Assembly (NCBI GenBank): GCA_027483535.1
Contig: JAIXUN010000003.1
Location: 496,001 to 560,000 of the forward strand
Direction of reading: 5' to 3'
DNA length: 64,000 nt
DNA from: a bacterium
Lineage (GTDB): Bacteria; Armatimonadota; Fimbriimonadia; Fimbriimonadales; Fimbriimonadaceae
Shown here: piece after piece, positions 44,632 to 47,412 of the stretch
Layout of the letters: each line of letters starts with the position of its first letter
Position numbering within the stretch: position 1 is the first letter of the stretch
Position numbers and translations under genes: made by a program
Notes under the pieces: generated by a model
What the model was told of the DNA's origin: nothing
The model's input: only the letters and a program-made list of their open reading frames with translations
The model's database searches: none

Positions 44632-44951
44632 GAAGAGAAAGGGTGAGAGAGCGGCGTCGTTGCCGCTGCTCTATGCAAGTCGTAAAGACGCCTGAGGGGG
44701 TCGGAAGGGAGCCTTTAATTCTCCCCATCTTATCCCCATTTTGGTCGATGGGCGGGCGTTGGATCGTGCCTTTTTTCCCTGGGGGTTGTTGGGCGCCGGA
44801 ACCCTCGCCCCTCCGGGGGAGAGGGTGCCCCGCTAGGGGCGGGTGAGGGGTCCGGAAGGTTGGGGACGGGGAGTTTCTGGTCGGTCCTCCGGACCTTTGG
44901 TCTTTAACGACCTCACTACCCAGACCTGACGGTCTGGGCTAACAATCTTGC

Positions 44952-45051
44952 CGGTCCTCCGGACCTACCGACGGGAGAATTCAGTTGAACCTGTAGAGAA
45001 AAGGTGCGCCAAAATTCCCCTCTATGGAGGGGTGGCGCGGAGCGCCGGGGT
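44952..45051 (+). repeat. 100-bp direct repeat, copy 1
   Basis: About 93% identical to 45348-45447 by eye (about 7 differences). It includes a GGTCC-TCC-GGACC hairpin, the line GTTGAACCTGTAGAGAA, and one copy of the 43-bp structured repeat. Confidence 0.8.
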
Positions 45052-45183
45052 GGTCGGCACCACCGAATACTTCCCAATCTCGGGGGACGAAGAACCTCGA
45101 CGGGGCAAGAAGGTCGCGGGGCTTAAGAGGCATTTCCGGAGACCACCCCGCCCCGTTGGGGCACCCCTCCCAAGAGGGGAATT
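45013..45183. repeat. 171-bp element with 43-bp terminal inverted repeats
   Basis: Ends are 45013-45055 and the inverted 45141-45183. Each end folds into two hairpins. The central 85 bases code for nothing recognisable. The build resembles a miniature inverted-repeat (MITE-like) or REP-doublet element. Confidence 0.65.
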
Positions 45184-45211
45184 TAACTGGATCCCCTTTT
45201 ACAAACTCCGT

Positions 45212-45307
45212 AAAGCGGCGGAGCCGCGACCATCATCGCAGCCCAGGGTTTCAACCCTGGGTCTATGCCGTTCAGTTAAGCCCCGAACGGCGGAGCCGTG
45301 GCAATAG
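45212..45307 (+). repeat. composite repeat B, copy 1
   Basis: Made of AAAGCGGCGGAGCCGCGAC, ATCATCG, the near-palindrome CCCAGGGTT-TC-AACCCTGGG (45242-45261), and CGAACGGCGGAGCCGTGG ending CAATAG. Copy 2 is at 47316-47412. Confidence 0.8.
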
Positions 45308-45347
45308 GTCTGGTGGAGATCCGAATAATGAGCGTGAAATGTCCGGT

Positions 45348-45447
45348 CGGTCCTCCGGACCTACCGAAAGGAGAATGCAGTTGAACCTGTAGAGAAGAGG
45401 TGCGCCAAGATTCCCCTCTACGGAGGGGTGGCGCGGAGCGACGGGGT
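45348..45447 (+). repeat. 100-bp direct repeat, copy 2
   Basis: Partner of 44952-45051 at an offset of 396 bases. A third GGTCC-TCC-GGACC core without the rest lies at about 44883-44896. Confidence 0.8.
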
Positions 45448-45451
45448 GGCG
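45409..45451 (+). repeat. 43-bp structured repeat, third copy
   Basis: Same two-hairpin unit as the ends of the 171-bp element: CCCCTC-TACG-GAGGGG, then GCGC-GGA-GCGA. Its last bases are GGCG where other copies read GGTC or GGTT. Confidence 0.7.
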
Positions 45452-45508
45452 CGGAGCGACCATGAAGTTTTCGCCTGCAACGGCCGACCGTCACTGTGGG
45501 TAATACCA

Positions 45509-46099
45509 ATGACGGACTTAGGTATCGCCCAAATGGCTCCCGACGACACCTCAAGATCAACGGTTCAGACCGAGAACCCTGCAAGGTGGGTGGTGCCGCT
45601 CGTGCTGGCAACGGCTCTTTGTGCGTTGCGTTGCCAGTTAACGTTCCCGTTTTCGTCCGACCACTGGCTGGCATACCATCGCGCAGTCCTCAACGGAAAC
45701 GCGCCGCCAACCTTGATGGGTCTAGCCTTGAATGCGGTCGTCTTTGGAGGTTGGTTCGCCATTACCGGACTGGGGCTCTCCGTCTGGGCGCACTGCTTCA
45801 CAAACGATGATCTCGATTCCCGGTTGATCGTGCCGTGGATCGGTTCGCTTTTAGCTCTGCCCATCTTCGTGGTTAGCCTCGTTCCCCTCTGGGTGTTCTT
45901 CAACTTGACCTGGGTGTGGCTCGGCTCATCGGTCATTGCTGCCATGTACTCGCTAATTTTCTTTGTTGGAACGTGTTTTCGGGGTGTTCGACCGAAGGCG
46001 AGCGCTTGGAAAGGAGCTGCGGAGCGGTTCTCTTACGGACTGATTCTTGCGTGTGTACTCGACTTGTTCATTTTTTGGTCGATGGGTGGAGGCAGATAG
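45509..46099 (+). CDS. polytopic membrane protein of unknown function
   Basis: A 196-residue protein with about five transmembrane helices (roughly at residues 28-45, 72-98, 110-136, 140-160 and 172-192). I do not recognise the family. The ATG at 45509 (MTDLGIAQM) is preferred to the frame's earlier start at 45428, which lies in repeat DNA. It is the first of three co-directional small genes lying between two clusters of repeats. Function unknown; a small membrane-associated role is all that can be said. Confidence 0.6.
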   Translation: MTDLGIAQMAPDDTSRSTVQTENPARWVVPLVLATALCALRCQLTFPFSSDHWLAYHRAVLNGNAPPTLMGLALNAVVFGGWFAITGLGLSVWAHCFTNDDLDSRLIVPWIGSLLALPIFVVSLVPLWVFFNLTWVWLGSSVIAAMYSLIFFVGTCFRGVRPKASAWKGAAERFSYGLILACVLDLFIFWSMGGGR

Positions 46100-46216
46100 G
46101 AATCGTCATTCGGGTTGTTCAGGGAGTTTCCTGAACCTGTTTCAGCCGTGCACAGCCAAGCCGGGAGGCTCGGTATTCTGTGGGTACAGAAGTATCAGCT
46201 CGGCGAGGCTCAACCA

Positions 46217-46900
46217 ATGGACGAGGCAAAGAAAAAAGAGGACGCCAAGTACAACCGCGTCACGAATATCGTTTGCTACTTGATCTTGGCGGGGATTGTT
46301 GGAGTCCCTTTTTTCAGTCTCTCGAACCAAGAGAAGAAGCAGGCCGAAAAGGTGATGGCAACCGTCGGAGACGCAGAAGCTCGTTTCTACCAAGGTTTAG
46401 CGAAGGATCTCGTTAGCCGACTCGCGATCAAAAGCGAACCAGGCAAGTTGGTTTGGATCCTCGGTCTCAGCCGGTCGGATGCGCTCGATCAGTTGAGCCG
46501 AACCGGGCTGGATAACGCCGTTGCGGTTCGCCAATCGGCGTGGGGCGGGAGTCCCGAAAGGTGGGATGTTTTGCAGTCTTACTCCACGCTCCCGAAGCGG
46601 GATGGCTTAGTGGTTCAGGCGCAACGGAGTCGCATCGTGTGGTTCGACATCAAGAAAGAGAGACTCGGGTTCGTTGTTGGCGATCCCTCTCTTCCAAAAG
46701 TGTCCTTGCCGGCGAAAGTGGATAACTGGAAGGTTGTCGAGGGAGCGAATGACGGCAAAGATCCGGAAGGGCTTGTTGGAATTTTCGAGGTCGATCGAAA
46801 GAAGGGCCTGTTGATCGATCCCGAACGGTCTGTTCGAAGCCTCGAGCCGGAAGGCGATTCGAATGCGAGCACTGGTGGTTCACCGGAAGGAGTGAAATGA
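46217..46900 (+). CDS. single-span membrane-anchored protein of unknown function
   Basis: A 227-residue protein. A basic N-terminus, one transmembrane helix (about residues 16-35, VTNIVCYLILAGIVGVPFFSL) and an extracytoplasmic mixed alpha/beta domain of about 190 residues. No catalytic motif is visible. The ATG at 46217 has GAGG 9 nt upstream. Stop and next start overlap by 4 bases (ATGA), so it is co-translated with the 86-residue gene. Belongs to the repeat-bracketed island. Confidence 0.6.
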   Translation: MDEAKKKEDAKYNRVTNIVCYLILAGIVGVPFFSLSNQEKKQAEKVMATVGDAEARFYQGLAKDLVSRLAIKSEPGKLVWILGLSRSDALDQLSRTGLDNAVAVRQSAWGGSPERWDVLQSYSTLPKRDGLVVQAQRSRIVWFDIKKERLGFVVGDPSLPKVSLPAKVDNWKVVEGANDGKDPEGLVGIFEVDRKKGLLIDPERSVRSLEPEGDSNASTGGSPEGVK

Positions 46901-47157
46901 ATATCGGACACCTGGTTGTCGTGGTGCTCACTGCGTACGCTGTGAGCATAGAAGGCAAGCTGAATTGGAAGAGCATTCTTCGACTTTGCTGGCCTGCCTA
47001 TCTCCTTGCTTTCATCGGGATTTTCTTGTCGGAGGAATACGGCTTGTCGTGGGGAAGCTATCTTAGCCTGTTGGGAGTCATCCCGTTTTGGCTGATGGTG
47101 AAGCGTCGGGAAACGAGAACTGTTGGTGAAGCTGGGTCCGAACCGCGAGAACGATAG
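46897..47157 (+). CDS. small membrane protein of unknown function
   Basis: An 86-residue protein with about three hydrophobic segments (about residues 4-17, 31-47 and 54-69) and a basic, charged tail. GGAAGGAG precedes the ATG, and the ATGA overlap couples it to the upstream gene. It may be a subunit of a small membrane complex with the two preceding products. No homologue is recognised. Confidence 0.6.
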   Translation: MNIGHLVVVVLTAYAVSIEGKLNWKSILRLCWPAYLLAFIGIFLSEEYGLSWGSYLSLLGVIPFWLMVKRRETRTVGEAGSEPRER

Positions 47158-47179
47158 CTTGCGCCTACGGGTAACCCGG

Positions 47180-47222
47180 AACCACCCCGGTCCTTCGGAC
47201 CACCCCTCCATAGAGGGGAATT
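47180..47222 (-). repeat. 43-bp structured repeat, fourth copy
   Basis: On the minus strand it reads CCCCTC-TATG-GAGGGG, then GTCC-GAA-GGAC, in the same frame as the copies near 45 kb. The second hairpin differs from those copies but stays paired. Confidence 0.75.
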
Positions 47223-47315: not shown

Positions 47316-47412
47316 AAAGCGGCGGAGCCGCGACAATCATCGTAGCCCAGGGTTTCAACCCTGGGGACAACAAGTGCCCAAACAAATTCGAAGGGCGGAG
47401 CCCTGGCAATAG
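47316..47412 (+). repeat. composite repeat B, copy 2
   Basis: Partner of 45212-45307: AAAGCGGCGGAGCCGCGAC and the CCCAGGGTT-TC-AACCCTGGG palindrome (47345-47364), ending GGCGGAGCCCTGG then CAATAG. Confidence 0.8.

Follow-up and report, generated by a model that had tools for sequence, protein, structure and literature searches.

Two-hairpin palindromic repeats of a Fimbriimonadaceae genome flank DUF559 nuclease genes, an association that recurs in several phyla

A 64,000-nt stretch of the genome of a bacterium of the Fimbriimonadaceae (Armatimonadota; assembly GCA_027483535.1, contig JAIXUN010000003.1, positions 496,001 to 560,000), hereafter the window, in which coordinates count from the first letter, contains four copies of a 43-bp repeat that consists of two consecutive hairpins. 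Inverted copies of this repeat also enclose a gene for a DUF559 protein elsewhere in the same genome, and inverted pairs of such hairpins surround DUF559 genes in several phyla. This suggests that the spread of this class of hairpin repeats is due to a DNA-cutting enzyme of the repair type rather than to the transposase known so far. We consider it probable (about 60%) that DUF559 units and their short, non-autonomous derivatives form an arrangement like that of repetitive extragenic palindromic (REP) elements and the REP-associated tyrosine transposases (RAYTs), built around an unrelated enzyme, and that DUF559 drives the spread. REP-like palindromes are among the commonest bacterial repeats and an enzyme is known just for those with a RAYT; a survey leaves open families that “apparently lack a dedicated transposase” (PMC3733652). 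If DUF559 is the enzyme of the G-rich two-hairpin families, a large protein family of unknown function gains a role, and REP elements would have a second, unrelated origin, a proposition testable with one protein and one oligonucleotide.

DUF559 genes between inverted hairpin repeats

Similar repeats occur beside DUF559 genes, and this family was therefore tested in the genome that carries the window (3.77 Mb, reported 99% complete; hereafter the source genome). It holds two intact DUF559 genes and one partial match inside a longer frame. Both intact genes directly adjoin copies of the repeat, and one of them (C4:41910) has family repeats in inverted orientation on both sides, a plus-strand copy (41803) and a minus-strand copy (42326), within 60-80 bp of the gene, so that the layout of C4:41803-42326 is inverted like that of a 171-bp pair in the window (Table 1). 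The encoded proteins are members of PF04480 (E-values 1e-28 and 2e-30). A search of the PDB with the DUF559 profile gave 3HRL and, as weak matches, PvuRts1I and I-Bth0305I, and an AlphaFold model (predicted local distance difference test score, pLDDT, 92) matches 3HRL, the catalytic domain of I-Bth0305I (3R3P listed) and Vsr (1VSR). The PD-(D/E)XK-type residues E..DF..E.DG..H..R, which include E71 and D73 in the numbering of L032, are invariant over 43 diverse members. Profile and modelled fold together identify DUF559 as a predicted one-domain, Vsr-like PD-(D/E)XK nuclease. The SOS response of Caulobacter cells without the methyltransferase ScmA needs the DUF559 protein VsrA, for which a role in mismatch repair was proposed (PMC12907096); this case suggests that proteins of the DUF559 family are able to damage DNA in living cells.

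The upstream and downstream flanks of DUF559 genes were scored as inverted repeats, with a threshold of at least 20; for the collection scan, a closer DUF559 set took the place of a broad alignment whose members were too diverse. Inverted hairpin flanks were found at 67 of the 91 DUF559 loci of the source and related (Fimbriimonadia-type) genomes, whereas randomly cross-paired flanks of this set had a median score of 11 and reached 20 in ~10 of 270 cases. Among 80 loci of GTDB genomes, which span several phyla (Armatimonadota, Alpha- and Betaproteobacteria, Chloroflexi, Ignavibacteria, Patescibacteria, and others), 70 had such flanks, versus 1 of 212 other open reading frames (ORFs) at those loci. 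The flanks share a recurrent layout of stem 1, GTG or GACC, a variable hairpin (missing in some) and GGGGTG or GGTGGAGGGG, which among plasmid-collection records is present in Sinorhizobium meliloti (114-nt inverted flanks), Sphingomonas and Sphingobium. No convincing inverted hairpin flanks were seen at the DUF559 matches of Azospirillum, P. aeruginosa, E. coli, Shinella and one Sinorhizobium K101 locus, so that the association, though frequent, does not hold everywhere. It could be argued that DUF559 proteins are enzymes of mismatch (very short patch) repair, as proposed for VsrA, and that their hairpin flanks are accidental or regulatory. Their Vsr-like fold agrees with this, but there is no evident reason why inverted, clade-specific repeats should surround a repair gene in ~80% of cases, and we find this explanation scarcely credible.

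Across genomes the similarity of the repeats tracks the identity of the DUF559 proteins (Spearman rho 0.36; 0 of 1000 permutations), a comparison of sequences which indicates that enzyme and repeat diverge together. The closest relatives of the DUF559 proteins of the source genome (62-66% identical) are found in genomes G004 and G033, where the same repeat is present and flanks the gene on both sides. In Sphingomonas, a hairpin-DUF559-hairpin unit of ~470-510 bp, with the two inverted hairpins as its ends and the gene inside, lies between sufB and sufC in about a dozen of 101 genomes, while the same spot in other Sphingomonas genomes measures 38-147 bp or holds unrelated insertions. Judged from these sites, this is a discrete unit with presence and absence, a pattern that falls short of the act of insertion. 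The sufB-sufC gap (L139:2361-2844 and orthologous sites) is an insertion hotspot, occupied by DUF559 units, other palindromes or unrelated sequence depending on the species.

The repeat family and its second hairpin

An earlier note on the window, made from its letters, had described the four copies, and a covariance model places them at 45014-45054 (+), 45142-45182 (-), 45410-45450 (+) and 47181-47221 (-) with 62-69 bits; no further full copy was found in the rest of the window. The first hairpin, CCCCTC/GAGGGG, is invariant, as had been stated. The alleles of the second are as described, except that the stem is 5 bp long, since G21 pairs with C33, and the end mismatch reported for one copy (GCGC-GGA-GCGA) is real yet no oddity, as it belongs to the commonest allele class genome-wide. 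Folding of five copies as single-stranded DNA yielded exactly two hairpins in four of them and, with an end mismatch, likewise in the fifth; copy 1 folds with -12.4 kcal/mol (z -4.3).

Table 1. Repeat copies and associated features in the window.
Feature	Position	Strand	Description	Basis
Repeat copy 1	45013..45055	+	ATT; hairpin 1 (45017-45032) CCCCTC-TATG-GAGGGG; T; hairpin 2 (45034-45046) G-GCGC-GGA-GCGC-C; tail GGGGTGGT (45047-45054)	covariance model, 68.5 bits
Repeat copy 2	45141..45183	-	inverted; hairpin 2 G-CCCC-AAC-GGGG-C	covariance model, 65.1 bits
Repeat copy 3	45409..45451	+	hairpin 2 G-GCGC-GGA-GCGA-C, commonest allele class	covariance model, 62.6 bits; allele table
Repeat copy 4	47180..47222	-	inverted; hairpin 2 G-GTCC-GAA-GGAC-C	covariance model, 65.8 bits
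171-bp element	45013..45183	.	inverted repeat pair with gene-free core of ~85 bp between	among about 28-31 units of this kind genome-wide
102-nt segment	44952..45053	+	upstream flank and repeat copy 1; duplicated at 45348-45449	repeat search, 93% identity
Second copy of 102-nt segment	45348..45449	+	bears repeat copy 3	repeat search

The genome-wide covariance-model search that the note had proposed counted at least 150 family members in the source genome, where BLAST alone found 66; a script run over the retrieved loci recovered 92 full copies with ~38 different second hairpins. Most copies come paired, in about 28-31 inverted pairs with mostly 153-177 bp spacing, so that the 171-bp element, rightly described as bounded by two copies, is a recurrent unit. 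One end of the core runs on into GGTGGTCGGCA and the other into GGTGGTCTCCGG or TTCCGG, and since some cores are common to distant units, the units appear to have been copied as wholes. A collapsed form, AATTCCCC-N-GGGGAATT, which occurs at a few sites, may have arisen when the sequence between GAGGGG direct repeats at the two ends was deleted. The copies are unevenly distributed: C1:336000-2456978 (2.1 Mb, 56% of the genome) holds just 4 of the at least 150 copies scored (binomial p ~1e-46), and the others cluster on C3, on C4 and within the initial 340 kb of C1.

Among 36 distinct 41-nt copies, 96.0% of the pair cells are paired, versus 87.4 ± 1.0% in shuffles, and the covariation score is 0.189, versus 0.062 ± 0.010 in shuffles (none of 500 reaches it) and no more than 0.069 when the structure is slid. 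Hairpin 1 never varies in this set, and four of the five pairs of hairpin 2 changed on both sides. The random, non-compensatory changes that would have spoken against the note's idea were thus not seen in the further copies, where covariation is about three times that of the shuffles, yet the outermost variable pair of hairpin 2 is unpaired in 13 of the 36 sequences. Its conclusion that compensatory change reflects selection for the fold stands in so far as hairpin 2 varies and still pairs far above chance. It is weakened by whole-block differences: elements with 96-97% identical cores bear unrelated second hairpins (GCCTGAAAGGCC versus GTCCCGAGAATCGGGAAC; CCCGCAGGGC versus CCCCAACGGGGC), which contradicts strictly stepwise compensatory evolution. 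As the incoming block is itself a palindrome, hairpin 2 would be replaced as a block with its pairing preserved. Pairing thus seems to be kept mainly by swapping one palindrome for another, and the “compensatory” change to be largely whole-block exchange. The direct repeats GGGGTG(G) on either side of the block offer a possible recombination route. At one S. meliloti site, strains 1021 and Rm41 have a second hairpin of which ml66 has lost the greater part by deletion. This hypervariable hairpin is a warning that covariation statistics in repeats may stem from exchange of whole palindromes.

The strong covariation and the stable folds would also be expected if the repeats were selected as RNA or DNA structures, such as terminators or mRNA stabilisers, with the pairing of hairpin 2 kept point by point. 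We regard this as highly unlikely, because hairpin 2 is exchanged as a block between near-identical cores, the commonest allele keeps its end mismatch and the repeat has no match in Rfam. For this last reason a structured RNA family, the alternative raised by the earlier note, was rejected; only neighbouring sequences match an Rfam family (see below). GNA loops close the second hairpin in 57 of the 92 copies of the source genome and in 51 of 64 copies of an alphaproteobacterial set. DNA mini-hairpins with C-GNA-G loops, GCGAAGC for example, are exceptionally stable, and the loops of the repeat therefore point to DNA, not RNA, as the folded form. GCGAAGC is in use as a DNA mini-hairpin (PMC4686876).

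Candidate drivers of the spread

The family has the features of REP elements, namely palindromes of 20-50 nt in high copy number and often in inverted pairs. The likeness to REP/RAYT systems proposed by the earlier note holds for these paired two-hairpin palindromes. It does not extend to the foot, as full copies lack GTAG or CGTC and their ends read ATTCCCC...GGGGTGGT, nor to the enzyme: the suggested search for a RAYT-like transposase, made with profile PF01797 (Y1_Tnp), gave no match in the source genome, reported 99% complete, and a resident RAYT was therefore rejected as driver. The repeats might still be ordinary REP elements multiplied by a RAYT, a Y1 HUH transposase, that has since been lost from the source genome, with DUF559 as a bystander. 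Y1 genes are indeed common in relatives (49 of 61). However, the studied repeat occurs at none of the six Y1 loci checked there, the GTAG foot is lacking, flanking of DUF559 is very frequent and similar repeats abound in Caulobacteraceae, most of which have no Y1 gene; a lost RAYT is thus very unlikely. Three of the Y1 genes of relatives (L149, L150 and L151) have long inverted flanks of their own, unrelated to the studied family, with scores of 48-105.

The alphaproteobacterial pattern GGAGGGGGACC-N-GGTGGAGGGG occurs in 1-93 copies in all 20 chosen DUF559-bearing genomes, the reversed pattern in none. Of 80 Caulobacteraceae genomes, 57 have repeat copies, 63 have DUF559 and 11 have Y1. Copy number correlates with the DUF559 count in the 80 genomes (rho 0.59) and in the 69 without Y1 (rho 0.57), as computed without phylogenetic correction, a limit that weakens the case for DUF559 as driver. 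DUF559 is present in 23 of the 26 Y1-free genomes with at least 10 repeat copies.

We propose that the repeat forms the ends of a small genetic unit, a DUF559 gene between two inverted two-hairpin repeats, of which the 171-bp element and the solo copies would be non-autonomous derivatives. The DUF559 protein would recognise its cognate hairpins, which it probably meets at replication forks in single-stranded or cruciform form, and would cut at or beside the second hairpin bounded by GGGGTGG; host repair from another copy would then spread the repeats and exchange the second-hairpin block. In the likeliest course of events, the nuclease targets the hairpins at its own ends, while the copying of repeats or swapping of blocks between copies falls to host repair. 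More tentatively, at somewhat short of even odds, this may represent a widespread class of mobile elements in which a single-domain Vsr-like nuclease, unaided by any known transposase or recombinase, spreads the hairpins at its own ends through cutting and repair and in the process trades an ultra-stable DNA mini-hairpin between copies. Such a nuclease would be the enzyme that many “orphan” REP families have so far lacked.

The association might also have arisen the other way around, with DUF559 genes as homing endonuclease genes that invade pre-existing REP-like pairs, the repeats being their target and their spread otherwise caused. Among the solved folds closest to that of DUF559 is the homing endonuclease I-Bth0305I, and the gene sits between two repeats where short elements hold just a core. 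This explanation is nevertheless unlikely: the repeat type matches the DUF559 clade, the core halves are unrecognisable beside the gene in L032, save for a weak similarity to TTTCCCGG, and the source genome, where Y1 is absent and transposase families beyond Y1 were not surveyed, yielded no further candidate driver. This limit of the survey also counts against DUF559 as driver.

Several further observations weigh against a DUF559-driven spread. We know of no single-domain PD-(D/E)XK nuclease that moves DNA alone. Target-site duplications of at least 5 bp were seen in 2 of 28 pairs versus 0.9 by chance, so none was detected, and no clean empty site was found; nested repeats of the source genome, used as an empty-site test, had flanks that are mosaics of other repeat families, with no clean junction. 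The Sphingomonas suf unit looks vertically inherited in its clade, and the differences between S. meliloti strains at their sites look like hairpin-mediated deletions or replacements, not clean insertions. Copy number in Caulobacteraceae also correlates, weakly, with Y1 (rho 0.37), and the Caulobacteraceae genomes G115, G147 and G133 have 11-36 copies and no DUF559, which may reflect loss or may count against the model. Genome G002 has 22 repeats of the studied type but no DUF559 of the matching clade. One of its copies (L155:1501-1546) combines a longer hairpin 1 with an identical second-hairpin allele, GGCGCGAAGCGAC, including the end mismatch.

Known systems and neighbouring repeats

The arrangement resembles REP/RAYT systems (TnpA_REP; REPtrons, bacterial interspersed mosaic elements (BIMEs), REP doublets forming hairpins (REPINs)) in its short, high-copy palindromes, inverted pairs, enzyme gene bounded by them and apparent single-strand structures. 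It differs from them in the enzyme, a PD-(D/E)XK nuclease instead of a Y1 HUH transposase, the missing foot and the presence of two hairpins, of which the second is hypervariable. With miniature inverted-repeat transposable elements (MITEs) the studied elements share their short, gene-free build, inverted ends and multiple copies with related cores, but no target-site duplication was detected and no DDE transposase is implicated. DUF559 shares its fold and catalytic-type residues with the Vsr-like homing endonuclease I-Bth0305I; that enzyme is intron-associated, whereas the DUF559 gene lies between inverted hairpin repeats that are present in many copies. In Sinorhizobium, long palindromic repeats that share the hairpin-tail layout of the studied repeat, but differ from it in sequence, lie on either side of a DUF559 gene; these palindromes may be of the rhizobial RIME type (RIME1). 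The CGTC and untagged REPs without a known transposase (PMC3733652) are likewise RAYT-free REP-like palindromes, frequent in Alphaproteobacteria and found in several phyla, although their sequence and foot differ and the cited work found no dedicated enzyme for them, a part for which DUF559 is the candidate here. In the open-access literature no DUF559 paper concerned palindromic repeats, judging by titles and abstracts, so that a description elsewhere is possible, and no text joined DUF559 or very short patch repair with the term repetitive extragenic palindromic.

Between the inverted copies 3 and 4 (45428-47155) lie ORFs of 223, 261 and 86 aa with no Pfam family above cut-off; a composite unit may carry them as passengers, or they may just be ordinary neighbours. 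At 44801-44852 a second two-hairpin family, CCCTCGCCCCTCCGGGGGAGAGGGTGCCCCGCTAGGGGCGGGTGAGGGGTC, is represented, laid out like the studied repeat. In relatives, repeats of its type flank DUF559 genes that belong to another clade (L113, L117 and L120), but no such DUF559 was found in the source genome. The repeats at 44919-44966 (+), 45214-45261 (-) and 47318-47365 (-) match the Rfam family RF01687, Acido-Lenti-1, one above and two just below the curated cut-off. This sequence is found again at many repeat-rich loci of the source genome, where this “structured RNA” behaves like another interspersed repeat family.
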